A DNA stretch of 64,000 bases from Streptomyces sp. KMM 9044. GTDB taxonomy: Bacteria > Actinomycetota > Actinomycetes > Streptomycetales > Streptomycetaceae. The stretch's first letter is position 1; each line of letters opens with the position of its first letter. The notes beneath the pieces were generated by a model, which had not been told where the DNA came from, made no database searches, and worked only from the letters and a program-made list of their open reading frames with translations. A program made the position numbers and the translations under genes. This document shows, piece after piece, positions 18,793-55,415 of the stretch. Location of the stretch: the NCBI RefSeq assembly GCF_024701375.2, contig NZ_CP113910.1, positions 2,232,001 to 2,296,000 of the forward strand, written 5' to 3'.

Positions 18793-19855
18793 TCACAGGG
18801 CCGGCCCGGCAAGCCGCGCGGTCTCGTCGCGGAGGTCCTCGATCGCCCTCAGCGCCGCCTCACGCTCGGCGTTGATCCTCGCACCCGGCTCCGTGAGGCC
18901 GCCGAGCGACTGCTCCACCAGGGCGATCCACGCGTTCACGTACCGCGTGCCGGCCTCGGTGAGGGCCTTCCGCTGTGCGCGTGCCTGCTCGGCGAAGTGG
19001 CCCCTGACCTCCTGCCGCCGCTTGTTGACCACCCTCCACTCGCCCTGCTCCTGCACGACGCCCGCCAGGTCCGTCAGCGGCCCCATGACCGCCAGCGCCC
19101 ACTGCACCCGGCCCGCCGCATCCGCCACCTTTCCGGCCGCCTTGGTCTTGCCCCACGGCTTGAACTTCCCTGCGCCGTCGGTGACTTTTCCACCGGCGTC
19201 GAGGATCTTCCGTCCCACCCCGTGCTTGTTGAGCTTGTCCACGACGGTGGCCGCCGCGCTTCCCGGCCCGTGGCCGCCGTCCTTGACCCTCCCGAGCCAC
19301 TCCCCCGCCTTCGCGGCACCCGTCTTCACGCCCTTCTTGGCCGCCCCCTTGACCCCCTGAGCCAGCGGGGACGCTTCCTTCGGCGCCGCGACGGGCGTCG
19401 TCCCGGGGGTTTCGAGGTCGTTCGCCTGCTTTGGGCAGCTCCCGTTCTGCGACCGCCAGCGCCGCGGCGTCCGCCCGGAGCGCCTCCACCGGCACGCCCT
19501 CCAGGGCCGGCAGACGGCTCCGCAGTCCGTCGAACCGTCGCAGCTCCCTGAGGTGTCCGCCCCCGTCCGGCGCCGGGACCCGCCCGCGGGCCGTCGTCAG
19601 GCGGATCAGTTCGTGTGCCTCGGCGCAGGTCACCACCGCGTCGGACACCGGTGGGAGAGTGCTCCCGGACGCCGGCAGGGCCGGGTACCCCCGCGCCCGG
19701 GCGACCGCGGCCACGTCCTCGGCGAAGCGCTGGAGTGCGGCCGGGCCCACCACGGCGTCCACCCTCAGCGGTTCGAGCAGGAGGGCCAGCGCCCCGGCCC
19801 TGAGGGTCGTCCCGCCGTGCACTGTCCTGCCCTTCGCCGCGCCGTCGTTCAGCAT
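18793..19855 (-). pseudogene. Frameshifted helical protein of unknown function
   Basis: Two frames overlap in a way that shows one gene. From about 19855 the first frame reads DAVVTCAEAHELIRLTTARG then FDGLRSRLPALEGVPVEALR and AERELPK. At about 19437 it must slip by one base into the frame QANDLETPGTTPVAAP..., which runs through AAKAGEWLGRVKDG to RYVNAWIALVEQSLGGL and the end. Reading CCCAAAGCAG as CCC-AAG-CAG (one A too many) restores a 353-residue chain. The C-terminal third is predicted helical or coiled-coil, with lysine/alanine-rich linkers. No family is recognised. It lies just downstream of the RecD-like gene on the same strand, so it may be that protein's partner. Confidence 0.6.
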
Positions 19856-19979
19856 GCCCCCGTTCACCGACCCGTCGTTCCTCTTCCGCGCTTCCCCGCG
19901 CTCACCCGGGCCTCGTACGGTCCCTCGTCCTTCGGGGGGACCGTACGCGCACGCCACCGGGCGGGTGCCGGCGGCGCGG

Positions 19980-22900
19980 TCACGGCCTCCTCCGCCGGGC
20001 GGCGGTCTTCTTGGCCCTTCTCACCGGACCGGCCCCGGCCCCGGTCACGTTCGCGGACCCGGAGTCCGCAGGCTCCGCGTCCAGGACCTGGGAGGCGAGC
20101 GCGAGCCAGGCCCGGGCGTCCGCGCCGTCGAGGTCGTCGGTCCACATCAGGGTGCCGTTGGGGCCGCCGCCCTTTTCCCACGGCTCGATGCCGTTCTTCG
20201 CGTACCACTCCTTCTTGCGCTCCCACGTGCGCGCGTAGTCGGGGAGGTCGAGCATGCCGGCGTGTTCCCAGAAGACCGTGCGGCCGTCCTCGGCGGCCAC
20301 GGTGAAGTCGGGGCGGACGACGCGGCCGTCGGCGCCCGTGAGCGGCTCCTCGTAGAGCCATCGCCCCGGCGCCAGGCGGTCGAGGAGGCCCGCGATGATG
20401 ACCTCGTTCTTGGAGGCCATCGGCGTCCCGTCGGCGGACACGTGCATCAGTTTGCGGTCGAAGCGGCGGGTCTGCCCCCGTACGTCGAGGGCGAACGGCT
20501 GCGGTGCCTCGAAGAGGTCGGTCAGCCGACGGGCGGTCTCGGAGTTGCTCGGGTGGGCGAAGGCACGCAGGTCCGCCAGGGTGCCCTCGTGGAGGATGAC
20601 GACTCTGTCCTTCTGCCGGGTCAGCGCCGTGTACAGAAGTTCCCTGGGCAGGTTGGCCCTGGCGGGCAGGACCAGGAACGTCGTGCCGAACTCGGAGCCC
20701 TGCGACTTGTGCACGGTGACGGCCCAGGCCAGCTCCAGTGGGGCGTCGTCCTTGTCCGACGGCTGGTAGCTGTACTCGTGGCCGGGCTGGGAGGAAAACT
20801 CCACACCGAGCTTCAGGGTGTGCTTCTTCCGTTTGGCGGGGGGCGTGGGCCGGGCGAGGGCGACGCCGATCTCCCCGTTGGCGACGTAGTCCATCGCGTT
20901 CTCGCGCGGCCACGCCTTCATGCGTTTGTTGGTCGTCTGCATGACCTTGTCACCGCGCACGATCTCCTCGGGCCCGATCGGGAAGGGGATGTTCGCACGC
21001 CGGTACCGTTTCGCCCACTCGGTGTCGCCGGCCCGGTACACGCGTTTGATGTGTCGGTTCAGCTCGACCGTCCCGAAGGCACGGGAACGGGTGGGCGAGA
21101 GGATCTGCCACGCCTCCGCGCGGATGCCCGCGCCGCGCTGCCAGTTGAGGTGGTCGCCGTTGACGCTGCCGCCGTAGGTGAGGGCGAACGCCCGCACGGG
21201 ATCCTCCGCATCACCGAGACCGAGGACCTGGCCGAGGGCGTCCGTGAGGGCCTGCACGGCGGTGCGCCCGCCCCAGGGGACGTACTGGAGCGTGGGAAGG
21301 TCGGGGTTGGTCGCGAGTTCGTCCCAGACGGCCTCGTCGCCGGCGCCGCGGGTGCCCCCGCCGAACCAGGCGGCGAGTTCGAGGTCGTGGCGGGTGCCGT
21401 GGCTGCCGTCCGGCAACTGGCGTCGGGGCACCTGCAACTCGACGTATCCGGCGGCGACCCGCACCGCGGTCGGGAAGTCGTCCGGGCACAGTCTGTCGAC
21501 CAGGTCAACGAACGGCCGTCCGGCTCCGATCGGGGGCAGTTGGCGGGGGTCGCCCACCAGGATCAGCCGTTTGACGCCGGTGAACGAGTCCAGCGTCGCG
21601 GCGAGCATCTCCTCCGTCAGCATGGACGCCTCGTCGATCACTACGAGGCCGTAGCCGCGCCGGGGGCGGTCGGCGCCCCGTACCAGGTACCGGCCGCTGT
21701 CGGCGTCGTAGCGGCCGGTGGCGCTCAGGTGGGAGGCGAGGGTCTTCGCCGGACGCCCGACCTTGGTCTCCAGCTGCACCTTCGCCTTGCCCGTGGGGGC
21801 GAGGAGCAGGACGTCCCCTGCGGCCACGCCGGGGTAGTCGACGAGGGCCCGCAGCAGCGTCGTCTTGCCGGTGCCCGCCGGTCCGACCAGGACGGACAGG
21901 CGTGCGTCGTGCAGGGCGGCGAGCCCCGCGGCCTTCTCCGTGCGGGCCCGCTCCTCCAGCTCGGCGGCGTGCGCGGCGTCGCCGGAGCCGTCCCGGTCCC
22001 GGTCACTGTCCCGGTCGAGTACGGCGTCGAGTACGGCGCGGGCGTCACCGATCCCGCCCAGCGCGGGGCGTGCCTGCTGCGCCGCCACCCAGTCCCGGAC
22101 GACGTTCGCCGTCTCCTCCAGCCGGTCCAGCTTGTAGGCGGGCGCGCCGTCGTCGAGCCGGACGGCGGTCAGCGGTGACCAGTCCGGGCAGTCGACGACC
22201 CCGTCGTGGTCCAGGCCGAGTCCGGTGAGGATGTCGCGGTTCAGAGCCGGGAGCCCCGTGGGTGCCATGAGCCGGATGTGCTCCAGGGCCTCGCCGACGG
22301 GGATCAGGGTGTCCCCCTGGTCGCACTGCCGCTCCAGCACCTCGGTGAGGAGTGCTTCGACGCGTCGGCGGTCCAGGGGGTCGCCGAGGCCCACCTCGTC
22401 CGGGACGGGCGGTCGCCAGGTGACGTGCGCCGGAGGGAACACCGCGCGGTCGACGGTGGTGAACGGGACGTGGAGGGGTTGGCCGTACGTGCAGGTCGCG
22501 GCGTAGTACGGGTTCTCCAGGAGTTCCTCGGCGGTCGTCTCGACCTCGGTGTCGCCGTCGAGCAGCATGCGCACCTGGTCCGGGCCGATGTCGAACCCGG
22601 ACAGCAGACGCAGAACCGCCCGGCGCTCGGCCGGGATCCTGTTCCAGACCCGTGCCTGGAGGGGGCCGACATGAGCCCGCAGTGCCCGCGGAGCGCGCGC
22701 GGGATCGGCGAAGACGCCGTGCAGCAGGTCCCACGGATCGGTGGCCTCGCCGGCTTCCGTGAGCACCGCTCGTGCGGCCACGTGTGGCCGCTGGACCCCG
22801 ATGAGGGCGAGGACGCCGGGCAGGCCAGGGACCGGACCGCGCAGCTGCCAGAGCCGTTCGGTCTGCTCGGTCAGCCAGGTCGTGGCGGACTCGGGGACGG

Positions 22901-23804
22901 CGAGGCCCAGTTCGCGCATGCCCTCGGCGGCCGACATCAGTGAGGCCAGGGCCTCGATGGCGGCGTCGTCGGAGAGGTGTTCCGTGACGTAGGAGAACTC
23001 GACGTCACGGCCCTCGGGCGCCCAGGCCAGTGCCCTGTCGATGTCGGCGCCCCCGTCCAGGAGCGGCACGAGCTGCTGATAGGGCAGTAGGACTCCCTCC
23101 GTCATGCCGGGGCGCAGGGAGTGCTGCACGATCGTCTCCCACATGGAGGAGTCGAACGGCGGTTTCCCGGCCTGGTTCCACATCGGCGGCCGGGTCAGGC
23201 CCGTGACGTGTGCGGCGCCCACCAGCAGGCGGTCGGTGCGCTGCTCCTGGAGCGGGGAGTGCTTGAGGTAGACGAACACCAGGCTGTCGCGTGGTGCGAC
23301 CGGCTCGAAGAAGGACTCGATGACCGCCTGTTGGTTGTCACCGTCCATCACCCAGGCGGCACGGGAGTTCAGGACGCGGTCGGTGTGGTCCTCGGCGAAC
23401 TGGTCGAAGGCGGGCACCCTGGCGTGGCCGATCTCGTCGTTCAGGGAGGCGCGGTTCAGCCAGCGGAAGGGGATGGCCTCGAACGCGTACCCGGGGACGC
23501 TGAGGGACGTGGGGAGCAGACTGCCGCGCAGCGCCTGGTTGTGGCTGTAGGGGTGCTCCTTGACGACGGTGTACCCGACGGGCGACATGAAGGTGGCCCG
23601 CTCACTCAGGCAGGGCAGCCGGTCGGGGTCCAGGCTGCCGACGGGGGCGCCCGCGTGTTCCGCTTCGAACGCGTCGTCGCGGCCCTTGCCGATCGCCGCG
23701 AGCAGGGTGCACGAGGAGTTGCCCTTCGGGTCGTCGCAGAGGAACTGGTCCCAGGGGCGGTCCCGCCACGGGATCCTCATCGACAGATGCTTCACGCCGC
23801 TCAT
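19980..23804 (-). CDS. RecD-like superfamily 1 helicase with C-terminal nuclease-like domain
   Basis: A 1274-residue protein. The centre is an SF1B helicase: Walker A GPAGTGKTTLL at about residue 640, motif II LVVIDEASMLTEE at about 720, motif III LILVGDPRQLPPI, and the UvrD_C_2 motif AWAVTVHKSQGSEF with TALTR near 1060. The last 180 residues read ASKNEVIIAGLLDRLAP, then VVRPDFTVAAEDGR and FWEHAGMLD, a PD-(D/E)xK-like arrangement in which the usual ExK is changed to EHAG. The first 400 residues (CLSERATFMSPVGY) are unassigned. The start lacks a strong ribosome site; Met at 23780 is an alternative. It is probably a DNA end-processing or restriction helicase. Confidence 0.8.
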   Translation of the reverse strand: MSGVKHLSMRIPWRDRPWDQFLCDDPKGNSSCTLLAAIGKGRDDAFEAEHAGAPVGSLDPDRLPCLSERATFMSPVGYTVVKEHPYSHNQALRGSLLPTSLSVPGYAFEAIPFRWLNRASLNDEIGHARVPAFDQFAEDHTDRVLNSRAAWVMDGDNQQAVIESFFEPVAPRDSLVFVYLKHSPLQEQRTDRLLVGAAHVTGLTRPPMWNQAGKPPFDSSMWETIVQHSLRPGMTEGVLLPYQQLVPLLDGGADIDRALAWAPEGRDVEFSYVTEHLSDDAAIEALASLMSAAEGMRELGLAVPESATTWLTEQTERLWQLRGPVPGLPGVLALIGVQRPHVAARAVLTEAGEATDPWDLLHGVFADPARAPRALRAHVGPLQARVWNRIPAERRAVLRLLSGFDIGPDQVRMLLDGDTEVETTAEELLENPYYAATCTYGQPLHVPFTTVDRAVFPPAHVTWRPPVPDEVGLGDPLDRRRVEALLTEVLERQCDQGDTLIPVGEALEHIRLMAPTGLPALNRDILTGLGLDHDGVVDCPDWSPLTAVRLDDGAPAYKLDRLEETANVVRDWVAAQQARPALGGIGDARAVLDAVLDRDSDRDRDGSGDAAHAAELEERARTEKAAGLAALHDARLSVLVGPAGTGKTTLLRALVDYPGVAAGDVLLLAPTGKAKVQLETKVGRPAKTLASHLSATGRYDADSGRYLVRGADRPRRGYGLVVIDEASMLTEEMLAATLDSFTGVKRLILVGDPRQLPPIGAGRPFVDLVDRLCPDDFPTAVRVAAGYVELQVPRRQLPDGSHGTRHDLELAAWFGGGTRGAGDEAVWDELATNPDLPTLQYVPWGGRTAVQALTDALGQVLGLGDAEDPVRAFALTYGGSVNGDHLNWQRGAGIRAEAWQILSPTRSRAFGTVELNRHIKRVYRAGDTEWAKRYRRANIPFPIGPEEIVRGDKVMQTTNKRMKAWPRENAMDYVANGEIGVALARPTPPAKRKKHTLKLGVEFSSQPGHEYSYQPSDKDDAPLELAWAVTVHKSQGSEFGTTFLVLPARANLPRELLYTALTRQKDRVVILHEGTLADLRAFAHPSNSETARRLTDLFEAPQPFALDVRGQTRRFDRKLMHVSADGTPMASKNEVIIAGLLDRLAPGRWLYEEPLTGADGRVVRPDFTVAAEDGRTVFWEHAGMLDLPDYARTWERKKEWYAKNGIEPWEKGGGPNGTLMWTDDLDGADARAWLALASQVLDAEPADSGSANVTGAGAGPVRRAKKTAARRRRP

Positions 23805-23898
23805 GCTGGTGTCCTGTCGGCCGGGTTCGTACGGTTTCGGGTCGCGGAGCTCTCCGCGTGCGGCCGTGCCGGATGGCCGCCGCCGGTCCGGGGCGCCG

Positions 23899-24546: not shown

Positions 24547-24821
24547 TCGGAGTCCGTAATGTCGCAGTGCCCCGGGCCCCCGCCTTCGGGGCGGCGCGGC
24601 CGGTGACCACATCCGTTCGTCCTGCATCGGATATAGCACCTGATGCACGGAGTTGGCGGGGGAAATGATGATCCCGTCGACGAAGCGTGACACGGTCAGG
24701 GTGGTGTGCCGTCGGCGTGTGCGGCTCGACGAGGTGCGGCACGGGGCCAGCCGTACGGTGCGGGGACGAGGGTATGGCGACTCAACTGGTGATCATCAGT
24801 GACCGTGAACCGCCGGCATAG

Positions 24822-25277
24822 GTCCTGGGGGCCCAGCGGTTGGCCTTTCCGGCCAGCCGGGCCGCGAGCGGGCTGCCCGCCGAGGGCGACCAGGCCCTTC
24901 TCTGCACGACGCGGGGCTGCTACCGGAATCCGACACGTGACCGCGGCCGGGCCATGGGACTGGCCGTCGTCACGTCGCCCGTCGAGACGCTCCCGGAACC
25001 GGTCGTCTTCGGCGAGCGACGCTTCACCTCGGGGTGTGCCCTGCGGATCGAAGGGCTGGCGCCGGTGCGTGACGGTGTCGTGCTCGCCGACCTGGTCCCG
25101 CGGCTGGAGGTCTTCCCGGACGAGCGCTCCTGGAGCGTACGCATGCGGCGGGCGTCGCTCACCCTTCCGCCGGCGGACGCGCATCTGCTCACCCGTGAGC
25201 TGCGGCCGCTGCTCGGACCACGATCGGAACGGCTCGCCGGCTACACGCGGGGGACCGAGTGGCATGACGGAACCTGA
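24822..25277 (+). pseudogene. EVE-domain protein lacking its N-terminus
   Basis: The frame, which opens right after a TAG at 24819-24821, reads VLGAQRLAFPASRAASG then ALLCTTRGCYRNPTRDRGRA and GLAVVTSPVETLPEPVVFGE, ending RSWSVRMRRASLTLPPAD. This is the middle and end of an EVE (PUA-like) domain, a reader of modified DNA bases often found in restriction systems. About 15-20 N-terminal residues forming the first strand are missing, and no ATG or GTG is in place; TTG at 24840 is the only candidate start. Either it is 5'-truncated and dead or it uses a rare start. It opens the rightward arm of the defence locus. Confidence 0.6.
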
Positions 25278-25440: not shown

Positions 25441-26853
25441 ATGCAGGCGTTGGACATGGAGAGGGACCCGGCTGTGCTGGGCCCGTTCGAGCTGCTCGCC
25501 GTGCTCGGTCAGGGAGGCATGGGCAGGACCTATCTGGCGCGGAGGCTACGGCTGGAGGACCTCCCGCCGGAACTGGAGGCGGCCTGTCACCTGACGGACG
25601 TCGACCAGCGGCAGGACGGTGGTCCTGTGCTCGCCGCGGTCAAAGTGGTCAAGCCGGACAGGCTGACGGACGGCAGCGAGCACTCCGAGCAGCAGGCGCG
25701 TGCCCGCTTCGGGCAGGAGATAGAGACGATGCGGACCGTCGTCAGCGCCCGGGTGCCGTCCCTCCTGGCGTCGGACGCCGACGCGGCACGGCCCTGGCTG
25801 GCCATGGACTACGTGCACGGCCCGACGCTCCACCACCTCGTGCACGCCCGCGGCCCGCTGGAGGTCGGCCCGTACGCGGCGGTCGGTCTGGCCCTCGTCG
25901 AGGCCCTGCGCGCCATCCACGAGGTGAAACTGCTGCACCGGGACCTCAAACCGGGCAACATCGCGATCGGCCCGGACGGCCCGGCGGTACTCGACTTCGG
26001 TCTGGCGGTGCTGACCGAACGCGACAGCGCCGAGGCGCTGACGAAGACCGGTACGGGTTTCGGGACCCCGGCCTACATGTCCCTGGAGCAGGCGACCGAC
26101 GCCAAGCACGTCGAGGAGCCGGCCGACGTCTACTCTCTCGGCGCGGTGCTCTACTACACCGCGACGGGCCGGGTGGCCTTCCCTCACGGCCCCATTCCGG
26201 TGGAGCCCGGCTGGGAGCGGGTGCCGTCGCCCTTCGTACCGCTGCTCTCCCGGATGCTGGTGCACGTCGCGGTCCAGCGGCCGCTGCTCGGTGAGATCGA
26301 GCAGACTCTGGTGCAGCTGCTCGCCCAGCACGGCCTCACCCCGCAGGATGCGGCCGGACAGCTCCGGGCCCTGGTCGACTCGTCCGGGCTCGTACCGGTC
26401 CTTCCCCCCGGCGCGTTCGCCGACGGGCCCGACCCCGAGGTACGGTCGGCCGCCCAGCGGGCCGTGGACGAGGGCGACCGTCCGGACGCGCCGTGGGCGC
26501 CGGCCGACGACCTGTTCGCCGAGTTCCTGGCCGGGGAGGACGCTGAGCAGCTTCCGGCGGCCGACGTCGCCGACGCCCCTGCGCCTGCGCCTGCGCCTGC
26601 GCCTGCGCCTGCGCCCGACGACGCTCCTCCCGCCGGGTACGTACCGACCGTCGTGGACGAGGGGGCGGTGCGGACGCCGGGAACCGGGGCACCCGCGGGG
26701 AACCCCGCCAAGGTCACCAGCTACCGTCTGGCTCCGCCGAAGCCCGCGCCGGCCCCGGTGCCGGCGGAGCCGACGACGTCCGGTCCGCCGCCGGCCGCGC
26801 TCAAGGCGGCGGAGTCCCTGCGTCGCGCGTACGCGCACAGCGGACGTCTGTGA
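25441..26853 (+). CDS. Ser/Thr protein kinase (Hanks type) with Pro-Ala tail
   Basis: A 470-residue protein kinase. The glycine loop is VLGQGGMGRTYLAR, the ATP lysine lies in VLAAVKVVKPDR, the catalytic loop is HRDLKPGN at about residue 165 and DFG at about 185; GTPAYMSLEQ is the activation-segment end. An insertion of some 25 residues sits between the glycine loop and the lysine. The C-terminal 160 residues are acidic and Pro/Ala rich with six PA units encoded by a (CCTGCG)6 repeat at 26578-26613. No transmembrane segment or PASTA repeat is present, so it is cytosolic. It is followed by the SNF2-like helicase and may regulate it, as PglW does in Pgl; this is inference. Confidence 0.85.
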   Translation: MQALDMERDPAVLGPFELLAVLGQGGMGRTYLARRLRLEDLPPELEAACHLTDVDQRQDGGPVLAAVKVVKPDRLTDGSEHSEQQARARFGQEIETMRTVVSARVPSLLASDADAARPWLAMDYVHGPTLHHLVHARGPLEVGPYAAVGLALVEALRAIHEVKLLHRDLKPGNIAIGPDGPAVLDFGLAVLTERDSAEALTKTGTGFGTPAYMSLEQATDAKHVEEPADVYSLGAVLYYTATGRVAFPHGPIPVEPGWERVPSPFVPLLSRMLVHVAVQRPLLGEIEQTLVQLLAQHGLTPQDAAGQLRALVDSSGLVPVLPPGAFADGPDPEVRSAAQRAVDEGDRPDAPWAPADDLFAEFLAGEDAEQLPAADVADAPAPAPAPAPAPAPDDAPPAGYVPTVVDEGAVRTPGTGAPAGNPAKVTSYRLAPPKPAPAPVPAEPTTSGPPPAALKAAESLRRAYAHSGRL

Positions 26854-26867
26854 GCGGGGTACCGGCC

Positions 26868-27097: not shown

Positions 27098-30000
27098 ATG
27101 TCCGAGACCGCCTCCGGTCTTCCCTCCGGCGCGCCCCCGGCCGGGACGCTGATCGAGGTCCGGGACGAGGAATGGCTGGTACGCAGCAGCGACGAGCTGC
27201 GGGCGGGCGAGTACGCGATCGACGCGATCGGCGCCTCGGAGCTGGTCCGCGGGCACAGCGCCCGGTTCCTGACGGCACTCGACGGCATGCCGCGGGTTCT
27301 GCGGCCGGAGGACACCAGGCTGGAGGTCGACGGGTCCGACGGGTACCGGGTCGGCCGGCTGTTCCTCGAAGCGGTGCGACGCAGGCTGCCGCTCCCGCAG
27401 GGGGAGCAGGGTCTCGCGCTGACCGAGGGGTTTCTGCTGGACCGGCTGGACTACCAGCTGAGGCCCGCGGTGAAGGCCCTCGCCAACCGGTTCCAGCCGC
27501 GGCTGCTGATCGGCGATGTCGTCGGCCTCGGCAAGACCCTGGAGATCGGGATCCTGCTGGGCGAGCTGATCCGGCGCGGCCGTGGTGAGCGCATCCTGGT
27601 GGTGACGCCGGCTCCCGTGCTGGAGCAGTTCCAGCACGAGATGTGGACGCGGTTCTCCCTGCCCCTGGTCCGGCTGGACAGCGCCGGCATCTCGCGGATC
27701 GAGCGGAAGATCCCGGTGGGGCGCAACCCGTTCACCTACTACAAGCGCGTCATCGTGTCGATGGACACCCTGAAGAACCAGAAGCGCTACGGGCCCTGGC
27801 TGCGGGACGTCGAGTGGGACGCCGTGGTGATGGACGAGTCGCACAATCTGCTCAACCGGGGCAGCGACCGCCGGGAGCTCGCCGAGGTGCTGGCCCGCCA
27901 GACCGACGCGCTGGTGCTGGCGAGCGCCACCCCGCACAACGGCGAGATGCGCGCCTTCACCGGCCTGGTCCGGCTGCTGGACCCGATGGCGGTGCGGGAC
28001 GCCGCCCGCCCCCGGGCCGAGGAACTGCACCATCTGATGGTGCGGCGGACCAAGGTGAGCGACGAGGTCGCACGGGTGCTGGAGGACAAGTGGGCGCCCC
28101 GCGGCGATTCCCGCCCCCTGCGGGTGAGGGCGAGCGAGCTGGAGGAGGAGGTGTTCGCCGAGCTGGCGGCGGTGTGGCTGTCCGACCCCGGGGCCGGCCG
28201 GTCCGGCGCCCGGGGCGACGAGCGCCTCTTCCCGTACGTGCTGCTGAAGTCGTTCCTCTCCTCGCACCGGGCGCTGTTCGCGACGGCCCGCGAGAAGCTG
28301 GCCACGCTGGGGCACGCGCTTCCCGAGGGCCACAAGCAGGTAGCGGACCCCTCCCCGGCGGGGCCAGCGGAGTCCCCGGCGGCGCGCGAGGTGGTGTCCC
28401 TGCTGCGGCTCACCGAGCTGGCCCGGCGCATCGAGCTGACGGCGGCGGACGGTACGGGCGTCTCGGCCAAGCTCGCCGGACTCGTCGCCGAGCTGCGGGA
28501 CGAGGTGAAGGTGGGGCCGGGCCGCGCGGCCCGCGCCGTCGTGTTCTCCGAGCGCCGCGAGACCCTCAACTGGCTCGGCACGGTGCTGCCGCCGCTGCTG
28601 GGCTGGTCGGACCCGAAGGACGGCGAGGCCGCCGTCAAGGTGATGCACAGCGGGGTCTCCGACACGGTCCAGATGGGCCACGTCGACGAGTTCGCCCGCG
28701 CGGGCGGGGACATCCGGGTGCTGCTCACCGGTGACGGCGCTTCAGAGGGTGTCAACCTGCACCGCCAGTGCCACCACCTGATCCACTGGGACCTGCCGTG
28801 GAGCCTGATCCGGGTCGAGCAGCGCAACGGCCGTATCGACCGCTACGGCCAGACCCGCCGCCCCGAGTTCCGCGCCCTGCTGCTCACCAGCGGGGTCGAG
28901 GGGGCGCTCGACGACCGGACCGTCGCGGAGAAGGTGCTGGCCCGCGAGGCCAGGGTGCACGAGGTGCTGGGCGCGGTGGAGGCCGTCACCCGGGAGAACG
29001 ACGGGGACCGCGAGGAGCGCAGGGTCATGGAGGCGCTGCTGGGCCGGGCCACGTCCGAGGAGGCAGTGGCGGACCTGGAGGCGGTCCCGGTGGAGGCGTT
29101 CGCGTCGGGTGAGGGTGACGGGACACCGGGAACGGACGCCGCCGCGCTACCGGTCGAGCGGCTGACGATGAGCGAGTTCGGCACCGGCCCCGCACCCGTC
29201 GGCTCTCCGGCCCACGTCGCCTCGACGGTGACCGAGGCCGGTACGCCGGACGGGAGCGCCTTCGGCGCCGCTTCCGGACTGGACCTGGACATCGACCTGG
29301 ACGACTTCGGGGACTTCGCCCCTCCGGCGGACGGCGAGGGGACGGAGGAGGACGGCAGCGGTAGGGGGGCGGCCTCGGGCACGGGCTCGTCGGAGGCCCC
29401 CGCCTCGGACATCCCCACGGTCGAGGAGCTGCGCTTCTTCTCCGGGGTCCCCGAGCGCAACCGGCAGGAGTTCGTCCTGGCCGGTCTCGCCGAGTTGCCG
29501 GACCTCGGCGGGCTGCGGGCCGGGCTCACCGTCGCGGGCACCGACCTGAGCTTCGAGCCGCCGCGGGACCTGGCCGACCGTTTCGACGTCCTGCCGCCCG
29601 GATACGTCCGTGACCAGGGCATCACGCGGCGGATCAACCTCACGTTCAGCCGGGAGGACGCCGCCGACTCGTTGCGGCGGGCCCGGGAGGACGCCGGTTC
29701 GACGTCGCTGTGGCCGGACGCGCACTACGTGGGCGAGTTGCACCCGGTAGTGGAGTGGATCACCGACAGGGTGCTGGTGGAGTACGGACGTCAGCAGGCC
29801 CTGGTGCTCCAGGTGGGGCCCGAGAAGGCGCCGGACCCGGTGTTCCTGACACAGGGGGTGTGGTCCAACGCGGAGGGCCGTCCCACCGCCGTGGTCTGGC
29901 TGGCGATCGACCAACTCGGCTCCGGCACGCCCCGCACCCGCGAGCTGACCCCCGGCCTGCTCGCGGCACTCGGAGTGGGTCCGGGGATGCCGGACCACTG

Positions 30001-37951: not shown

Positions 37952-37957
37952 CAGGAC

Positions 37958-40213: not shown

Positions 40214-40218
40214 CTGGC

Positions 40219-42876: not shown

Positions 42877-42976
42877 TGTGCATCCCCCTTGTCTCGGCAA
42901 CGGTGCCAGAACAACAGCACGTCTGATGGCCGTCAAGGACGTGTGGAAGAACTTCACGCCGCCCCGGGACCCGGCC

Positions 42977-43098
42977 GTCACCCACGGCACGCCCGGTCCC
43001 GCCGACAACGCCGCCGACAGCCGCGTACAGCCGGCCCGCGTCAGCGCGTCACCACTGGTCACGCTACGCGACCGGCCCGGATGCTGTCCGCATGACGA
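42977..43098 (+). repeat. 122-bp direct repeat, copy 2
   Basis: Second copy of the segment at 39078-39199 (nine mismatches). It lies upstream of, and includes the start of, the intact ATP-binding protein gene at 43092. The two copies flank the STAND / phosphotransferase cassette. Confidence 0.9.
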
Positions 43099-46600: not shown

Positions 46601-47953
46601 GCAGGCGTTCGGGCGGGGCTCCGAGGCCCCGGCGTTCGTCCTCGTCGGCGCACGGGCCGGCCGGAGCGACTTCGAACGGGTCGACACCCGGGAGAGCTGG
46701 TACACCGACTTCACGGCCCGCTGCCTGGACATGGACCGCTCCCTGGCCGGCGACTACCTGGCCAGGCTGCTTCCCCGGCTCGCCGAGCCGGGCATCGGCG
46801 CGCTGGCGTACCGGCGTACCGGCGAGCAGCGCGCCGGACGCGGCCGGGACCGGGCCGGGGTGTACGGGCTGACCCCCGGACACGTCCGGGTGCGTCCGCT
46901 CGCCGACGACGAGACGGCCGCCGCCGCGCTGGTGTGCCGCGAGTGCGGCTGGACGCAGACCGTGCCGCCGGAGCGGGTCCAGGTGTGGGCGGGGCTGCCC
47001 TGTCCGCTCAAAGGCTGCGCCGGCGCCCTGCGACGGCCCCCGGCGGCGGACGCCGGGCGGGCCGGACGTGACTTCCGCGGCGACTACTACCGCCGTCTGT
47101 ACCGGGAGGCCGACCCCTACAGCGTGGTCGCGGCCGAGCACACCGGTGTGCTGACCCGCAGGGAACGCGAGCAGGTCGAGAAGGGCTTCCGCGAAGGGGT
47201 CCGGCACACCGACCCCAACGTGCTGTCCTGCACGCCCACCCTGGAGCTCGGCATCGACATCGGCCAGTTGGAGGCGGTGCTGCTGGCCTCGCTGCCGCCG
47301 ACGACCGCGGCGTACGTCCAGCGGTCCGGCCGGGCGGGGCGCTCCACCGGCAACGCGCTGCTGGTGTCCCTCGCCGACACCAGCCCACGCTCCCTTTACC
47401 ACCTGGCAGAGCCCCGGCATCTGATCGCCGGGCGCATCCTTCCACCGGGCTGCTTCCTGTCCGCCACCGAGCTGCTGCGCCGCCAGTTCACCGCCCGTCT
47501 GCTCGACCTCGCGGGCCGGGGCGGGCTGGAGGGCGTGCTGCCGCTGCCCGACCGGGCTACGGCACTGTTCGGGCGGGCCGGATGGCTGCGCCGGTTCGCC
47601 GAGGCCGTCGTCGGCCGGACCGACCTGGTGGACGACTTCCTGCGACTGTTCCCCGAGGTCGAGGGGGTCCCCGACTCGGGGGCGTCCCGTGACGCCCACA
47701 AGGAGCTGCGCCGGTACGTGGAGCCGCTGCCCGACGCCGGTGACGCGGCGGCGGCGCGATCGCCCGAGCGGTGGCTGGCCTGGCGGCTGCGGGACGCCGA
47801 GACCGCCTGGGAGGCGGAGCGGGCGGAGCTGGTGGACCGGCTCGCCGCGATCGACGAGGCCGCCGAGGCGTTGCACGACACCGTCGAGGACGAGGCCCGC
47901 GAGAAGCGGACCCTCGGCCGGGACTCCGTTGCCCAATTCCGAGCGGTCGCCGG

Positions 47954-49831
47954 TCAGGCTGTGAGCATGTAGGCAAGGCGTTCGAGTCTGCTGGTCCGGG
48001 GTCTGCCGAGCGGGGTGGTGCTCCAGTAGGCGTCGAGGCGGATGACGTTCAAGGCGGTGGCGGAGAAGACGTGCTGGAGGCGGACCTTGGCCAGTCCTCG
48101 GTAGCGGGCCCGGCGGATTCCGGTCATGTCCAGGGCCTGGTTGATCGTGCCCTCGACCCCCGCGCGCAGCTTGTACTTGTCCCGCCAGGTCTGGGTCTTC
48201 TGCACGGCGCGGGCGGTGGCCTGGATCTCGTGCAGCTCTTTCGGCCGCAGGGTGAGCATCCGACTGACCCGCCGGGAGGAAGTGCACTGCGTCCTTGACG
48301 GGCAGGCCCGGCAGTCGGTGGAGGCGAACTGGGCGACGATGGCGGGCCTGCCGTGCTGGGTGACCGGATACCACCCGGCGCTGGTGCGACCGGCCGGGCA
48401 GGTGACCTGACGGGCCTTCCAGTCGACGCGGAAAGCACTCTTGTCGAACCCCGCAGCGGCCTTGGACTGCGGCGAGTGGTCGGCCAGCAGCGGGGTGACC
48501 ATCGCGGTCCCGTCCTTGCCGGCGGCGGCCACCAGGTCCACGCTCGGATAGCCGGAGTCCAGATAGTGCTCGCCCGGGCGCAGACCGCGCTCATTCAGGC
48601 GCTGCTGGATGCCGGCGGTGGCCTTCACGTCCGGCACCGTCGCCTTCGTGGTGTGCACATCGGTGATCAGGTTCGGCGGCGCCGCGACGCGCTTCCCGCT
48701 CCCGGCTTCGGCTTCGGCTTCGGCTTCGGCTTCGGCTTCGGCTTCGGCTTCGGCTTCGGCTTCGGCTTCGGCTTCGGCTTCGGCTTCGGCTTCGGCTTCG
48801 GCTTCGGCTTCGGCTTCGGCTTCGGCTTCGGCGGGAGTATGGCAGGTCTCGGTCAAATGAATCTTGTAGCCCAGCCAGAACAGCTCCTCGCCCTTGGCCG
48901 CCCACCGCGCATCCGCATCGTAGGGAGAGGCCAGGCGGATATGACCGGGCGGGACGCCGTCCACCTCGGCCTCCCGCTTCCTGATCACCTCCCGTCCCCG
49001 CGCGCCGGTCTCGATGTAGTAGGTCTGCACCAGCACCTGCCGCAAAAGCTCAACCGCGGGAAGCTCCGCCAGCCACGGCGGGGCGCCGGGCGCGCGCACC
49101 GCCCGGCACAGCATCAGCGCGTCCTGCCCGAACACCACCGCGAGCCGGTCCCGCTTGGTCTTCGAGGCCGGCAGCTTCCACCCGTCCACGCGCGGACCGT
49201 AGCGGTGCGCCAGTTCGGTGACATCCACCGCGCCTGCCAGCCACTCGGGCGCGGCTGCGGCCAGCACCTCCAGCGCGGCGCGCACGCTCTCGCCCGCCAA
49301 CTCCAGCCGGTTCAAGTCCCTCACCGCGCTGATGACATGGGTGGAGTCGCTGCGCTGCTTGCCGCCGGCCGCAACGAGTCCCTCGGTGCGGCAGCACTCC
49401 AGGAGCCGGTCGAAGACCAGGCGTTCCATGCCGTGCTCGATCAGGCGTGCGCGGAACTTGGCCAGCACGCTGAAGTCGAAGCCGGGATCGGTCAGCTCGG
49501 CGCCGATCGCGTACTTCCAGTCGATCGCGCGTACCGCCATCGCGGTGGCCTGCCGGTCGGTCAGGTCCTCGGTGAACTGCAGGACAGTGACCAGCGAGAG
49601 CACCGCCGGGGACAGCCCCGGGGCACCGCGCACCCCGAACGCGTCGGTGTACGGCTCATCGGCGAAGACCGCTTCCATCCGGTCTCGCAGGCGTATCGGC
49701 AGGCTCCCGGCCGGGAAAGCGGCCCGGGCCACCCTCGCTGTCTCCTCCGGAACCGCAGGCAGCCCCTCCGGCCGCATCGACATCCGCACCATCCCAGGGC
49801 TCGCACCACTCATGACGACACGGCAGATCAT
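47954..49831 (-). CDS. IS1182 transposase with an (Ala-Glu)n insertion
   Basis: A protein of up to 625 residues. N-terminal motifs fit IS1182: EETARVARAAFPAGSLPIRL, DLTDRQATAMAVRAIDWKYA and the DDE segment GGKQRSDSTHVISAVRDLNR. The later part has YLDSGYPSVDLVAAAGKDGT and TDCRACPSRTQCTSS, then a C-terminal KYKLRAGVEGTINQALDMTG. Between about residues 345 and 388 there is a run of alternating Ala and Glu encoded by a hexanucleotide repeat, absent from usual transposases. The start is uncertain; Met codons at 49783 or 49777 (MSMRPEGLP) suit the family better. Apart from the repeat all expected blocks are present, so it could be active. Confidence 0.85.
   Translation of the reverse strand: MICRVVMSGASPGMVRMSMRPEGLPAVPEETARVARAAFPAGSLPIRLRDRMEAVFADEPYTDAFGVRGAPGLSPAVLSLVTVLQFTEDLTDRQATAMAVRAIDWKYAIGAELTDPGFDFSVLAKFRARLIEHGMERLVFDRLLECCRTEGLVAAGGKQRSDSTHVISAVRDLNRLELAGESVRAALEVLAAAAPEWLAGAVDVTELAHRYGPRVDGWKLPASKTKRDRLAVVFGQDALMLCRAVRAPGAPPWLAELPAVELLRQVLVQTYYIETGARGREVIRKREAEVDGVPPGHIRLASPYDADARWAAKGEELFWLGYKIHLTETCHTPAEAEAEAEAEAEAEAEAEAEAEAEAEAEAEAEAEAEAEAEAEAGSGKRVAAPPNLITDVHTTKATVPDVKATAGIQQRLNERGLRPGEHYLDSGYPSVDLVAAAGKDGTAMVTPLLADHSPQSKAAAGFDKSAFRVDWKARQVTCPAGRTSAGWYPVTQHGRPAIVAQFASTDCRACPSRTQCTSSRRVSRMLTLRPKELHEIQATARAVQKTQTWRDKYKLRAGVEGTINQALDMTGIRRARYRGLAKVRLQHVFSATALNVIRLDAYWSTTPLGRPRTSRLERLAYMLTA
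48704..48831 (+). repeat. Hexanucleotide microsatellite (GGCTTC)21
   Basis: Twenty-one perfect copies of GGCTTC lie inside the transposase gene (Ala-Glu units on the minus strand). No interruption is seen, so the array is recent and probably variable in length. Changes by whole units keep the frame. Confidence 0.97.
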
Positions 49832-52800
49832 CTCCCACTGCGCATCGCCGCCGCGGCGAATTGGGCAACAGAGTCGGCCGGGAGGCCAAAGCCGTGCGCG
49901 GACAGTTGCAGACCCTCGCCCAGTCCGGCGCGCAGGCGTTCCTCGTCGAGCGGGGACTGCTGCCCAACTACACCCTGGTGGAGAACGGCGTCCGGCTGGA
50001 GGCGGTCCTCACCCGCAAGGAACCGGCCCGGCGGGCCCGGGGGGCGGACGCGGAGCGCGCGCCGAAGAGCCGGTGGCGTACCGAGACACGCCTGTACCAG
50101 CGGCCCGCCGAGGCCGCGCTGACCGAGCTGGCACCGGGCAGCTCCTACTACGTTCTCGGCTACCGGCACGAGGTCGACGGGTTCGACCTCGGCGCCCGGC
50201 CCCGCGGCGGCGAGCAGACCGCGGACGGCACCGGGGAGGAGAGCCGGCCGGCGATTGCGGTGTGGCGGGTGTGCCCGGAGTGCGGTCACGTCCGCACCGG
50301 ACGGGACGCCGAGGCGGACACCTCGCCGTGCCCGCGCTGCGCCGGGCCCGGCATCGGCGGCCGGTCGGCACGGTTCTCGGTCATCGTGCCGCGCAAGGTC
50401 ACCTCCCGTGACCGGCGGGACGACGCCCGCATCATCGACGACCAGGAGTCCCGCAGCCGCCGCTACCACTCGACGGTGACGGCGGTCGACGTCGACCCGG
50501 CGGCGGTCAAGGAGAGCTGGCGGCACCAGAGCGCCGTCTTCGGGTTCGACCACGTACGCGAGGCGGTCGTACGCCGTTTCAACCTGGGTCCGTCCAGGCC
50601 GGGGCGGCGTCCGGACACGTTCTTCGCCGGGCGTGAGGTGACTGTCAGCCCGTTCACCGTGTGCCCGCTGTGCGGCGGGGCCACCGACCGGGATGCGGGC
50701 CATCCGCCCGTGCAGGAGCAGGTGAGCGAGTCGATCGCGGCCCGGCCCGAGCTGGCGCATCACCGGCCCTGGTGTCCCACCCGGCGCCGGGCCCGGCCCG
50801 TTCAGACGGCGAACGCGCGGGTGATCACGTGCGCCGAGCACCGCACCGAGGCCCTGCGCGTCCTGCTGCCGGCCGCGACCCTGCAAGTCCCCGAGCGACT
50901 CGCTTCGTTCTCCGCCGCGCTCCATCTCGGCCTGGCCCTGCGCTACGGCGGCGACCCCGCGCACATCCGCTCCGCCCCGACCAGCGAACCGGACCGGGCG
51001 ACCGGTCTGACCCGCAACCACCTGGTGCTGTACGACTCCCTGCCCGGGGGCACCGGCTATCTCCAGCGTCTCGTCGAACGCGACGGCGAGGAGTTCCGGG
51101 CCGTACTGGCCCGCGCCCAGTCGTATCTGCGCGGCTGCCCCTGCGGGAAGGAGCCCCGGCGCCGCGCCTGCCATCTGTGTCTGCTCGGCTACGCGCCCGA
51201 CCGGGACCACGCTCTGCTCGACCGGCGCGAGGCCCTGTGGATGCTGGACGACGTCCTCGGCGTGGACGGGCACAGCCGCTGGGACGTCCGCCGAGCCCGC
51301 AAGGAACCGGACGGACGGACCGGAGCCGGTGAGGACGTCGGGGACGTGGACCGCCGACGTTTCGCGAAGCAGGCACAGAGCGACCTGGAGCGGCGCTTCA
51401 TCGACTGCCTGGACCGGTGGCTGGAGAGCGCCTCCGACGGCGCCGGGGTCGAGCACGAGGAGACGCCGACCGGTCGCCAGGGCAAGCTGTTCACCCTGCG
51501 CGGACGGGACGGCTCCCCCGTCCACTGGGAGGTCGTCGCGCAGAAGCCGCTCGATGCCCACGGCACGGTCCCGGACCTGCTGCTGCGCCCCGCGGGCGAC
51601 ACGGCCACCGGTGACGGGCCGCGCCCGGTACCCGTGGCCGTGTATCTCGACGGCTACCGCTGGCACGCCTCCGAAGCCGTCAACCGGATCGCCGGGGACG
51701 CGGCGAAACGTGCCCGCCTGCGGGCCGACGGCACGTTGGTGTGGCAGATCACCTGGGACGACGTCATCGCCTGGGAGAAGGAACTGCGCGAGCGGTCCGG
51801 GCGCGCCGGCGGCGCCGACGCGGACGAGGCTGCGGGTGCGCTCGCCCCCGCGCTGGCCGGACCGCAGGCGCGAGGCGCCTGGCCTCCGTACCCGGTGGAC
51901 GGCGACAACACGCCGGGCGGCAAGGCGCGTGCCCGGTGGGTACAGCAGCGGCAGGACCCGGCGTACATGGACCGGCTGTTCGCCGGTGCGATCCCCGCGC
52001 TACTGGGGTTCCTGGCCGATCCGGACCCGCGCCGGTGGCAGGTGCTGGCACGGCTCGCCGTGGCGGGCCTGATGAGCATGGCGCGGCGCGAGGACGTCGT
52101 CGACGCCGGGCCCGAGGCCGCGGTGCCGTGGGTGGAGGCCGTGCTGCGTGGCGGGGAACGCCCGGCGGTCGGCGGGGACCCGGGGGGGCTGCGGCTGTAT
52201 CCGGTACGCGACGGTTCGGGGCTGCCCCTGCTGCTGATCGGGGACTCCCGCGTCAGACCGCAGGGGCTGAGCGCACTGGCGGTCCTGGACGACCGTCCGG
52301 AGGCCGTCGCCGGTGACGGTGCCGAGCACCGGCGGCGCTGGAAGGCGTGGCTGTGCTGGGGCAACGTCCTGCAGTTCCTCGACCCGTCGGGCGAAGGCCG
52401 GGCGGACGGACTGCAGCTGGCCCGCACGGCGCTGGACGCCTTCGACGCCGGCCTGCTGGCCGCGACCGCCGGGCCGGCCGGCGGGCTTCTGGCCGCCCTG
52501 CGCGAGGACCAGCAGGGTACCGGGCTGACCGACAGCGGCGCGGTCCCGGCCGGGGCCGTCGCGGAGCCCGAGCGGGGCGCCGACGTCCGCATCACGGGCA
52601 CCGGCACCGGTGCCGCAGTCGCAGTCGCGCACGCCGACGCCGTCACGCCCACTGCTCTGGAGCGGACGACCGCCTGGCAACTCGTGCTGCGGGAGCTGTC
52701 GTACATGGGCGACCCTGCCATCGAGAAGCTGGCGCTCGCGCTCGCGGAGCGGGGGGACGTACCGCCGCCCGAGGCCGGGTGGGACACGCATGGGGTCTCC

Positions 52801-52997
52801 CGCCCGCTGGAACTGGCCTGGCCCACGGCGAGGATCGCCGTCGTCCTGGCCGAGGACGCGCAGGACGCCGGGTATCTGTCCGAGTGCCACGCCGCGGGCT
52901 GGCGGGTCGGGGACGCGGGAGCCTGGAACGAGACCGAGCTGGCCGCCCTGGTCCGCCAGGCACGGTCCGGCGCGACGGACGAGGGAGGCGACGGAGC

Positions 52998-55415
52998 GTG
53001 AACACCCCGGTCAGGACACAGGTCATCCCGACCCCGCAGGCCAACGAGGACATCAAGGGCCTGGCTCCCGGCGACAAGAACGCCGTCGGCGACTTCGTCC
53101 GCAGGTTGCGCGCCGACCGCTCCAACCGCGCTCTGCGACTCACCTCGCTGCGGGATGCGGGCCGCAACGGCCGGCTCTTCCTCGCGAGGGTCGACAGCCG
53201 CGGGACGGCTCTGCTACTGGAGACCGACGAGAACCGCTTCAGCCTCCTCGCCGTGCGGGTCGGCGACACGGCCCGCGACGAACTCGCCCGGATCACCGTG
53301 GAGATCAACGAGATCTCCGGGGGTGTCGAACTCGTGGACCAGAGCGTGGTCAGCCGTGAGGTCGTCGCGCTCCCGCCCCGAGAGGGCGCGGGCAACACCG
53401 GGGACGCGGTGCCGTCGCCGGCCGACGGCACCGCTCATCCGGCCCCCCGGTCGCTGCCGGTACCCCTGTTCGCCCGGCACGACGACACGGAACTGCTCCG
53501 CCTCGGCGTGTCCGCCTCGCTGCTTCCGGCGCTTCGGCGGATCACGGACCGGGCGCAGTTGGAGACGCTGCTGGGCCACAACCTCCCCGCTCTCACCCGC
53601 GACGTCCTGCTCGCCCTGAGCGACGGAATGGAGCCCGCCGACGTCCGGGTCCACATCACCGAGGCGTGGCGCGCCGACGACAAGGTGGATCCGCACGACT
53701 GGGCGAAGGCTGCACGCCGGCCGGTGTCCCGGGTCAGCACCGAGGACGCCGCCGTGCTCGGCGCGCTCGGCGACGGGTTCGAAGCCTGGCGGCTGTTCCT
53801 CCACCCCGAGCAGCACCGCCTGGCCACTACCTCGTTCAAGGGGTCGGCCAAGGTGACCGGCGGCCCCGGGACCGGCAAGACGGTGGTGGCACTGCACCGG
53901 GTGCGCCATCTGGTGGAGCGGCTTCCGCCGGGGCACACCAAGCCGGTGCTGCTCACCACGTACAACACCAACCTGGCCAAGGACCTTCAGGACAGGCTGT
54001 ACCGCCTCGGCGGTGACAAGCTGGTGCGCCGGGTCGAAGTGAAGTCGATCGACCGGCTCGCCCGTGAAGTCGTCCAGGAGACGCACCCCGGGTCCCCGCT
54101 GCCCCCTCCGCTGAGCGACGAGCAGGCGCTGAGCCTCTGGCACACCGTCTGCGCCGAGGCCAAGGTGTACGCGTTCGACGCGGAGTTCCTGGACTGGGAG
54201 TTCCGACATGTGATCCTCGCCCAGGGCTGCGGCACCGACCACATGTACCTCCGGGCCGGGCGCAAGGGCAGGGGCGTCCTCCAGCGTCCGCAGCGCCGCC
54301 AGGTGTGGGAGCTGGTCCAGCGTTACCGGGCGCATCTGGACCAGCAATACCGCACCACACACGCGCTCATCGCCGACGAGGCCGCCCGTGCGGAGGGCCA
54401 TCGAATGGCCAGGGTGAACGAGCAGACCCGCTACAAAGCCGAACACGGTGGCCTCGACCTGATCCACCGCGAGGCCGGGAGCGGTATGTGGCTCAAGCCC
54501 CGTTACCGGCACGTGGTCGTGGACGAGGCGCAGGACCTGTCCGCGTCCCACTGGCGCATGCTGCGCGCGATGGTGACGCCCGACCGGGACGACATCTTCC
54601 TGGTCGGTGACGCCCACCAGCGGATCTATGCCCACCAGGTGGTACTGGGGCGGCTGGGCATCAGCACGCCCGGCCGGGCCTCACGCCGGCTGACGCTCAA
54701 CTACCGGACCACGCGCGAGATCCTGGGCAGCGCGCAGGGGCTGATGAGCGGCGAGCGGTTCGACGACCTCGACGACGGCCGGGACACTCTCGACGGTTAC
54801 CGATCCGTGCTCACCGGACTGTCACCGCAGTACTGGCGCGCCCCTGACTGGCAGACCGAGATGCGGGCGATCGCCGTGCTTCTCAGGGAACGCCACGACC
54901 GCTACGGAACGCCCTACGCGGCGATGGCGATCGGTGTGCCGTCGCGGGACTCGGCCAGGCAACTGGCCGTCACCCTGGCCGATGAGCGGTACGGCATCCA
55001 CGCCTGCGAGATCGGCCGGGACATCCCGGCCAGGGTTGACGCCGTACGCATCGGCACGCTGCACGGCTTCAAGGGTCTGGAGTTCCAACGGGTTTTCCTC
55101 GCCGGGGTGAGCGAGGGTCTGATTCCGCATCAGCGGCTCGAAACCTACCGGCACGAACAAGTGGAACGCTACCGGCAGGAAGAACAGCAGTCCCGTTCGC
55201 TGCTCTTCGTGGCGGCCACACGGGCCCGCGACGAACTGGTGATCACGTGGAACGGGAAGGCCAGTCGTTTCCTCCCGGAGCACGCCATGAGGAGCGCCGG
55301 GCACGCCACGGAACTTCTGGTGGACGACGGCCCGCCATCCGGATCGGCAGCGGCATGGTCGGACAGGCAAAGCGGCTCGCACGGCCCGGCCGAGTGCTCT
55401 TCGGAAGCCTCCTGA
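52998..55415 (+). CDS. UvrD-like helicase with RelE-like N-terminal domain
   Basis: An 805-residue protein. Residues 1-95 (NEDIKGLAPGDKNAVGDFVR, then RALRLTSLRDAGRNGRLFLA and LLLETDENRFSLLAV) have the strand/helix order of RelE/YoeB-type ribonuclease toxins. The rest is an SF1A helicase: Walker A GGPGTGKTVVALHR (about 291), motif II HVVVDEAQDLSASHWRML (about 508), motif III LVGDAHQRIYAH, then GTLHGFKGLEFQRVFLAG and SLLFVAATRARDELVIT. The GTG at 52998 overlaps the stop of the giant helicase gene (GTGA), so it depends on that transcript, now interrupted by the IS1182 element. It is the last gene of the rightward defence operon. Confidence 0.8.
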   Translation: MNTPVRTQVIPTPQANEDIKGLAPGDKNAVGDFVRRLRADRSNRALRLTSLRDAGRNGRLFLARVDSRGTALLLETDENRFSLLAVRVGDTARDELARITVEINEISGGVELVDQSVVSREVVALPPREGAGNTGDAVPSPADGTAHPAPRSLPVPLFARHDDTELLRLGVSASLLPALRRITDRAQLETLLGHNLPALTRDVLLALSDGMEPADVRVHITEAWRADDKVDPHDWAKAARRPVSRVSTEDAAVLGALGDGFEAWRLFLHPEQHRLATTSFKGSAKVTGGPGTGKTVVALHRVRHLVERLPPGHTKPVLLTTYNTNLAKDLQDRLYRLGGDKLVRRVEVKSIDRLAREVVQETHPGSPLPPPLSDEQALSLWHTVCAEAKVYAFDAEFLDWEFRHVILAQGCGTDHMYLRAGRKGRGVLQRPQRRQVWELVQRYRAHLDQQYRTTHALIADEAARAEGHRMARVNEQTRYKAEHGGLDLIHREAGSGMWLKPRYRHVVVDEAQDLSASHWRMLRAMVTPDRDDIFLVGDAHQRIYAHQVVLGRLGISTPGRASRRLTLNYRTTREILGSAQGLMSGERFDDLDDGRDTLDGYRSVLTGLSPQYWRAPDWQTEMRAIAVLLRERHDRYGTPYAAMAIGVPSRDSARQLAVTLADERYGIHACEIGRDIPARVDAVRIGTLHGFKGLEFQRVFLAGVSEGLIPHQRLETYRHEQVERYRQEEQQSRSLLFVAATRARDELVITWNGKASRFLPEHAMRSAGHATELLVDDGPPSGSAAAWSDRQSGSHGPAECSSEAS

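Follow-up and report, generated by a model that had tools for sequence, protein, structure and literature searches.

ARMADA type II is a defence system of four genes: ArmA, an SNF2/RapA-like helicase; ArmB, a PglX-like methylase; ArmC, a YprA-DUF1998 helicase with a nuclease-type C-terminus; and ArmD, which joins RelE to a UvrD helicase (Bell et al. 2025 preprint, PMC12458937). As the main text of that preprint describes, the system was tested in E. coli strains as four genes, and these four genes protect. Loss of any one of them by deletion abolished protection, and the protection measured was non-abortive (Bell et al. 2025, PMC12458937). Here we compare this system with a locus of Streptomyces sp. 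KMM 9044 (NCBI RefSeq assembly GCF_024701375.2, contig NZ_CP113910.1, positions 2,232,001 to 2,296,000). These 64 kb, which we call the window, come from a 7.43-Mb genome, about 72% G+C. Judged by domains and gene order, the locus at 25441-55415 is very probably a decayed actinobacterial form of ARMADA type II, with the order kinase-ArmA-ArmB-cargo site-ArmC-ArmD.

The gene order of the window was derived from codon-position composition and family searches. The locus is laid out as follows:

25441..26853, plus strand: Ser/Thr protein kinase, 470 amino acids, the head gene; Pfam Pkinase 87 bits; upstream of ArmA in relatives
27098..30292, plus strand: ArmA, RapA/BrxHII-like SNF2 helicase, 1064 amino acids, intact; SNF2-rel_dom; PADLOC DrmD 251 bits; best PDB match RapA; 80 related loci
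30453..34594, plus strand: ArmB, first part, PglX/type IIG-like adenine methylase, interrupted by an insertion sequence; Eco57I, MmeI_Mtase; PADLOC REase_MTase_IIG 578 bits, DrmMI 188 bits; border from the S. parvulus comparison
34595..36359, plus strand: insertion in ArmB, presumably IS1380-type; DDE_Tnp_1_4 transposase in two frames, 34764-35414 and 35411-36190
36360..37893, plus strand: ArmB, last part, C-terminal region; PADLOC REase_MTase_IIG 184 bits; S. parvulus comparison
37958..39036, minus strand: cargo site, small gene (37958-38149; presumably DUF397, judging by its position) and HTH_31/DUF5753 regulator (38167-39036)
39211..42988, minus strand: cargo site, APH-family gene (39272-40213) and weakly NB-ARC-like ATPase (40219-42876), between direct-repeat copies
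43092..43622, plus strand: cargo site, HATPase_c_2 gene
43797..47923, plus strand: ArmC, first part, YprA-type DEAD helicase; DEAD, Helicase_C; PADLOC DruE 240 bits; PDB YprA 6znp; border from the S. parvulus comparison
47924..49875, minus strand: IS1182-family element in ArmC; transposase 47954-49831; NCBIfam NF033551 281 bits (cut-off 270); terminal inverted repeats
49876..53001, plus strand: ArmC, last part, MZB/DUF1998 domain (MZB match), then PD-(D/E)XK/Vsr-like motif (motif columns)
52998..55415, plus strand: ArmD, RelE-like fold (first ~115 amino acids) and UvrD helicase, 805 amino acids, intact; UvrD match, RelE fold; in 43 of 43 spans

Relatives were sought with an alignment of 23 ArmA proteins, which was scanned against genome contigs. 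Its rows come from Streptomyces, Kitasatospora and Embleya, except for one that has no source name. The best 80 of 136 relatives were kept, and all 80 are actinobacterial. Genes in these loci were called with our own codon model, trained on the window genes.

The window and its relatives share with ARMADA type II the kinds of ArmA, ArmB, ArmC and ArmD, their order and their strand. A BrxHII/RapA-like SNF2 helicase comes first, save for the kinase standing before it. The PglX-like methylase follows ArmA directly in 80 of 80 loci and is present, though interrupted, in the window. ArmC is a single-chain YprA helicase with DUF1998/MZB, 2200-2425 amino acids long in relatives and interrupted in the window, and the RelE-UvrD helicase comes after it. 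The order A-B-C-D on one strand is found in the window and in all 43 spans read, with or without cargo between B and C. What differs from ARMADA II is the kinase at the head and the cargo site between ArmB and ArmC in the actinobacterial loci; the window copy is also broken by two insertion sequences. The core is thus already known as ARMADA II, and the kinase head, the internal cargo bay and a variable methylase end are what sets these loci apart.

ArmC is linked downstream in 60 of the 80 loci, and in one more (L038) it was seen by eye. We also looked for it farther downstream by a DruE-family search in 48 genomes. There it lies on the same contig and strand in 43; three loci (L021, L043, L079) reach the contig end, and their matches, like those of L067, fall on different contigs; the DruE-family search gave no ArmC match in the genome of L044. 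Each of the 43 spans read holds a full-length ArmC and then ArmD on the same strand. As the 10-kb flank of many loci was without a YprA gene, we had considered kinase-ArmA-ArmB as a system apart from YprA. This was rejected once the whole-genome searches placed ArmC farther downstream.

An earlier reading of the sequence alone had concluded that the locus fits no single named system. Since the SNF2-methylase-YprA-UvrD core is that of ARMADA II, in the same gene order, this claim falls; assignment to one described system, which that reading had itself set down as speaking against it, is largely what we find. It had named ARMADA and not recognised it. Its wider view of a composite or undescribed branch of the YprA-helicase supersystem survives in part: the locus does belong to a YprA-helicase defence branch, and the kinase is conserved in the actinobacterial loci examined (73 of 73).

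Other known systems share parts of the locus. Like DISARM class 1, it combines an SNF2 helicase, a PglX-like methylase and a YprA-family helicase, and PADLOC matches to DrmD, DrmMI and DruE could be taken to mean that the locus is a variant of DISARM class 1 or Druantia. We give this reading hardly any credence. DISARM has DrmA and DrmB as separate genes, whereas each of the 43 spans encodes ArmC in one chain, and RelE-UvrD is present here. ArmA misses the DrmD equivalog cut-off (268 of 610 bits), and no PLD nuclease, a feature of DISARM, occurs among the window proteins scanned. Druantia III is approached through DruE, the best PADLOC match of ArmC, but the methylase and the SNF2 helicase are features of the present locus. 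Neither DrmC nor DruH is among the best 25 PADLOC matches per window protein scanned, and neither was searched for in the related loci.

The Ser/Thr kinase next to a PglX-like methylase resembles Pgl/BREX type 2, in which the kinase is PglW. The window kinase reaches 49 of 990 bits against PglW, and neither PglZ nor BrxC is among the matches listed. The best PADLOC matches of the kinase are PD-T4-6 (151 bits) and mad6 (129 bits), a likeness to PD-T4-6 and MADS (methylation-associated defence system); but the remaining genes differ, and the kinase misses the NCBIfam MAD6 cut-off (75 of 460 bits). Membership in DISARM, Druantia, BREX and MADS was either rejected or not supported.

The domains of the core proteins agree with most of what the sequence-only reading had seen in them. 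Pfam confirms the Ser/Thr kinase at 25441-26853 (plus strand), and family matches confirm the SNF2 helicase at 27098-30292 (plus strand), whose best PDB match is RapA. The "giant adenine methylase" is an Eco57I/type IIG-like methylase from 30453 as claimed, but not one gene, as the presumed IS1380-type insertion parts 30453-~34594 from 36360-37893. The same holds for the "giant YprA-DUF1998-nuclease" protein: it is a YprA-type helicase with MZB (DUF1998), but the IS1182-family transposase (47954-49831, minus strand) parts 43797-47923 from 49876-53001. The RelE-UvrD protein is borne out as a UvrD helicase to 55415, and its first 121 amino acids have a RelE-like fold; its start lies near 52998 rather than 52347.

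The first part of ArmC matches YprA/MrfA in the PDB (6znp, E-value 2.9e-20). At its nuclease end the pattern PD...YLDG...H...D-x-x-K consists of columns at least 95% identical over 44 rows. A putative Vsr-type nuclease is read from these motif columns; on the other side, Pfam gives no match for it, and the structural model is weak (predicted local distance difference test score, pLDDT, 71) with no PDB match at E ≤ 0.001. The RelE region of ArmD is better modelled (AlphaFold, pLDDT 84) and matches 1wmi_A (E-value 7.4e-5) and 3g5o_B (E-value 1e-3, template modelling score 0.81 by target). Pfam sequence searches find no RelE in the ArmD of the window or of S. parvulus, and give sub-threshold ParE/HigB-like matches in 3 of 3 distant relatives.

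The kinase is a regular addition to the core. It stands directly upstream of ArmA on the same strand in all 73 loci with more than 1.5 kb of upstream DNA; in 71 of them it is a called gene, and in L039 and L042 it is a tblastn match. The gap to ArmA measures 10-535 nucleotides, with a median of 127 (71 loci). The window kinase carries the HRDLKPGN and DFG motifs. All 71 called kinases have HRDxKPxN followed by DFG or DLG, and 70 of them HRDLKPxN. Distances between kinases correlate with those of ArmA (r 0.959, 69 loci), ArmB (0.930, 70) and ArmC (0.972, 42); for reference, ArmA-ArmC gives 0.984 and ArmA-ArmB 0.971. None of 2000 permutations reached the observed kinase correlations. Streptomyces plasmid records also have the kinase before ArmA (3 of 3).

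Several observations limit what can be read from this. The correlations share the species tree and therefore show long joint inheritance rather than function. The count of 73 is valid for actinobacteria alone because the ArmA query was actinobacterial and the best 80 of 136 relatives were kept. We further examined 14 of the 35 plasmid records in which ArmA is matched. Outside Streptomyces, no kinase match lies near ArmA in 11 of 11 plasmid loci (tblastn, E ≤ 0.001; ARMADA I and II not told apart). These loci come from E. coli, alphaproteobacteria, cyanobacteria, Tsukamurella and Mycobacterium riyadhense, with upstream DNA of only 430 bp in L091 and 1.9 kb in L140. The Tsukamurella and M. riyadhense plasmids are without a kinase match though actinobacterial. 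In the Nostoc plasmid record a kinase is annotated about 7 kb upstream, which does not match the head kinase. Finally, ARMADA of E. coli protects with four genes (main text of PMC12458937). Given this and the 11 plasmid loci, ARMADA as a whole does not include the kinase.

These observations also feed a rival explanation, that the kinase is a mere expression regulator or hitch-hiker, as WYL genes may be in alphaproteobacteria, and that the machine is ArmA-ArmD alone. Four genes suffice in E. coli, the 11 plasmid loci are without a kinase match, and a WYL-domain gene stands directly upstream of ArmA, in the place of the kinase, in three alphaproteobacterial plasmids (L090, L140, L142). Yet the strict position, the intact catalytic motifs and a correlation of 0.959, compared to 0.971 for ArmA-ArmB, suit a functional partner, with which a purely regulatory role is still compatible. 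We consider the rival a serious possibility, though somewhat improbable. The kinase itself seems to have been added in some of the actinobacteria, and it is absent from the published text covered. The main text of Bell et al. (PMC12458937) never uses the word "kinase", and the literature searched, including the parts covered of PMC12839542, PMC11090510 and PMC13192584, gave no description of an ARMADA head kinase. Five loci (L103, L105, L115, L119, L124) have a member of the kinase BLAST cluster immediately beyond ArmD, on the other strand.

In the window, a 5.9-kb run of other genes (37958-43622) separates methylase and YprA helicase, which corrects the earlier reading. Across 43 loci measured, this ArmB-ArmC gap ranges from 0.4 to 22.6 kb, and gaps beyond about 15 kb were read in part only. 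Each cargo family takes its name from a single scanned representative, and the names were spread by single-linkage BLAST clusters. Genes that cluster by BLAST with the helix-turn-helix/DUF5753 regulator, and with its small HATPase-type partner, occur in the gap in 50 of the 60 linked loci. HEC-01 occurs in the gap of 21 of these 60 loci, a Beta-protein gene with a weak PD-Lambda-2_C match in 18, NsnA, NsnB and NsnC in 14, 13 and 13, and a caspase-helicase or Mokosh-like gene in 13, 11 of them with EACC1; other cargo is rarer. At least one of HEC-01, NsnA with NsnB, EACC1 with caspase, or the Beta gene is found in 34 of 60. The scanned representatives score 548 bits for HEC-01A and 434, 397 and 319 bits for NsnA, NsnB and NsnC. 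We take NsnABC to be Menshen. In Menshen, a DUF262 gene is paired with a predicted OLD nuclease (part covered of PMC10952713), and the Pfam matches of the Nsn genes agree with this make-up. Neither HEC-01 nor Menshen is named in the main text of Bell et al. (PMC12458937).

Cargo stays with a lineage for some time before it is swapped. In an ArmA tree of 57 rows, the six cargo labels need at least 14 changes, where the minimum possible is 5, yet none of 200 shuffles was as low. The 17-row ArmA clade of the window's nearest relative has none of the three labelled cassettes (the window itself is outside the tree). In the window, the APH and weakly NB-ARC-like genes are absent from the same place in S. 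parvulus. They are flanked by a 183-nucleotide direct repeat (39077-39259 and 42976-43158) whose copies are 86% identical and which has a single counterpart in S. parvulus. As a named defence system these two genes were rejected, since they have no PADLOC match.

The cargo might simply reflect defence-island crowding, without a working relation to ARMADA. Frequent loss and gain, which includes unrelated genes, fits such crowding, and defence systems generally cluster. Set against this, the cargo sits at a single spot inside the gene set, and kinase-ArmA-ArmB and ArmC-ArmD remain contiguous in the loci read. We find crowding and a working relation evenly balanced.

ArmB itself varies as well, and it does so towards one end. 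We compared 69 pairs of loci with ArmA more than 88% identical and a full ArmB. The eighth or ninth tenth of ArmB is less than 75% identical in 64 of these pairs, and in 19 of 20 disjoint pairs. The window ArmB is 92% identical to that of S. parvulus before the insertion and 72% identical after it. Such a changing C-terminal third is the pattern that target-recognition swapping would give. Two counts tell against a change peculiar to ArmB: some tenth of ArmA falls below 75% in 9 of 69 pairs, and the last tenth of ArmC does so in 11 of 45, its first nine tenths in 0 of 45.

The breaks in the window copy were mapped by comparison with Streptomyces parvulus (L005 and L095). Over 19632-34594 the two are about 94% identical in DNA, and from 36360 on 81-88%; in the helicase gene the identity is 94-95% up to 47923 and resumes at 49876. 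The S. parvulus counterparts of ArmB and ArmC are single open frames of 1899 and 2425 amino acids. The element in ArmB (34595-36359), presumably of IS1380 type, has its own DDE_Tnp_1_4 transposase split over two frames. The IS1182-family element in ArmC is bounded by 25-nucleotide terminal inverted repeats (47922-47946 and 49851-49875). Its transposase gene also contains a long repeated Glu-Ala stretch (48703-48838). Because the insertions interrupt genes that are single open frames in S. parvulus, whole ArmB and ArmC are almost certainly not made in this strain. Since both are interrupted and every one of the four E. coli genes is needed (main text of PMC12458937), the system is predicted to be inactive here.

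Upstream of the kinase lie three further genes:

19980..23804, minus strand: RecD-like helicase, 1274 amino acids, judged a neighbour outside the system; PADLOC candidate PDC-S68, 1432 bits
23899..~24474, minus strand: unknown gene
24774..25277, plus strand: gene labelled "EVE" in the earlier reading, in-frame stop at 24819; found upstream of the kinase in some loci

According to the sequence-only reading, the RecD-like arm, the kinase, the SNF2-methylase pair and the YprA-UvrD pair form one composite or undescribed YprA system. The genes do adjoin in the window and in S. parvulus L005 (94% DNA identity over 10.7 kb). Beside ArmA, however, the RecD-like and unknown genes were matched in 1 of 80 loci (L005), although 70 of the 80 have at least 7 kb upstream. 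The PDC-S68 family occurs in 1 of 61 genomes searched, the window's own, and we found no paper on PDC-S68 in the literature. With the remaining core being ARMADA II, one composite system is very unlikely. The kinase and Arm homologues co-occur in order and the RecD-like arm does not; because of this lack of co-occurrence with ArmA the RecD-like gene was rejected as a component and is regarded as a mere neighbour.

With it goes the proposed "second helicase-nuclease arm" of RecD-like, unknown and helical genes. Family matches bear out the helicase at 19980-23804 (minus strand); its nuclease end comes from reading the sequence, without a family match. The "EVE reader" has the in-frame stop noted above, and neither the window copy nor that of S. 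parvulus has a Pfam match, which leaves the label unconfirmed; the gene was matched upstream of the kinase in L005, L006 and L022 out of 80 loci. The "helical protein" has a frame change near 19400, and it is inside this gene, at 19632, that DNA similarity to the nearest relative ends; only its first part was matched, in L005. Its frame at 18793-19329 weakly matches LeoA-type proteins and, below threshold, a dynamin-like helical domain. Two genes from the RecD-like gene, at 17077-18471 (minus strand), lies a gene with a recombination endonuclease VII domain.

The plasmid records contain other arrangements of Arm genes. On a cyanobacterial plasmid (L139) the order is ArmC-ArmD-ArmA-ArmB. On a Tsukamurella plasmid (L087:5245-14799) ArmA comes after genes for UvrD, a helicase-related protein and a DUF1998 protein, as though ARMADA had taken in a second YprA module in split form. 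On an IncY-typed E. coli plasmid (L088) Zorya II genes lie beside ARMADA-like genes and another gene pair, which we liken to Druantia III.

How an intact system might work can be sketched from the protein families and the E. coli experiments, set beside the gene content, linkage and sequence patterns observed here. ArmB would mark host DNA at a site set by its exchangeable C-terminal region. ArmA (SNF2) and ArmD (UvrD) may move along or remodel DNA or its complexes, and ArmC would unwind and cut unmarked DNA. By analogy with PglW of BREX type 2, the kinase could be a phosphorylation on-off switch that assembles or licenses the machine. The ArmA and ArmD motors and the ArmC helicase-nuclease would act jointly on unmarked incoming DNA, in line with the non-abortive protection in E. 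coli (main text of Bell et al., PMC12458937). Defence genes between ArmB and ArmC would profit from their place within a gene set that is maintained, and may be a back-up.

Taken further, actinobacterial ARMADA II could be a five-gene, kinase-controlled chassis with a swappable ArmB recognition region and a bay for whole defence systems (HEC-01, Menshen, EACC1-caspase). The kinase would then link infection sensing to the machine and to the embedded effectors, with direct attack first and lethal back-up second. This extended picture is speculative, and we think it rather unlikely in full.

For the family, the variable ArmB C-terminus predicts different methylation sites between loci. The fifth gene, the kinase fixed at the head in the actinobacterial loci examined, offers a handle on the switching of a multi-motor system. 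New defence genes can be sought in the bay between ArmB and ArmC.

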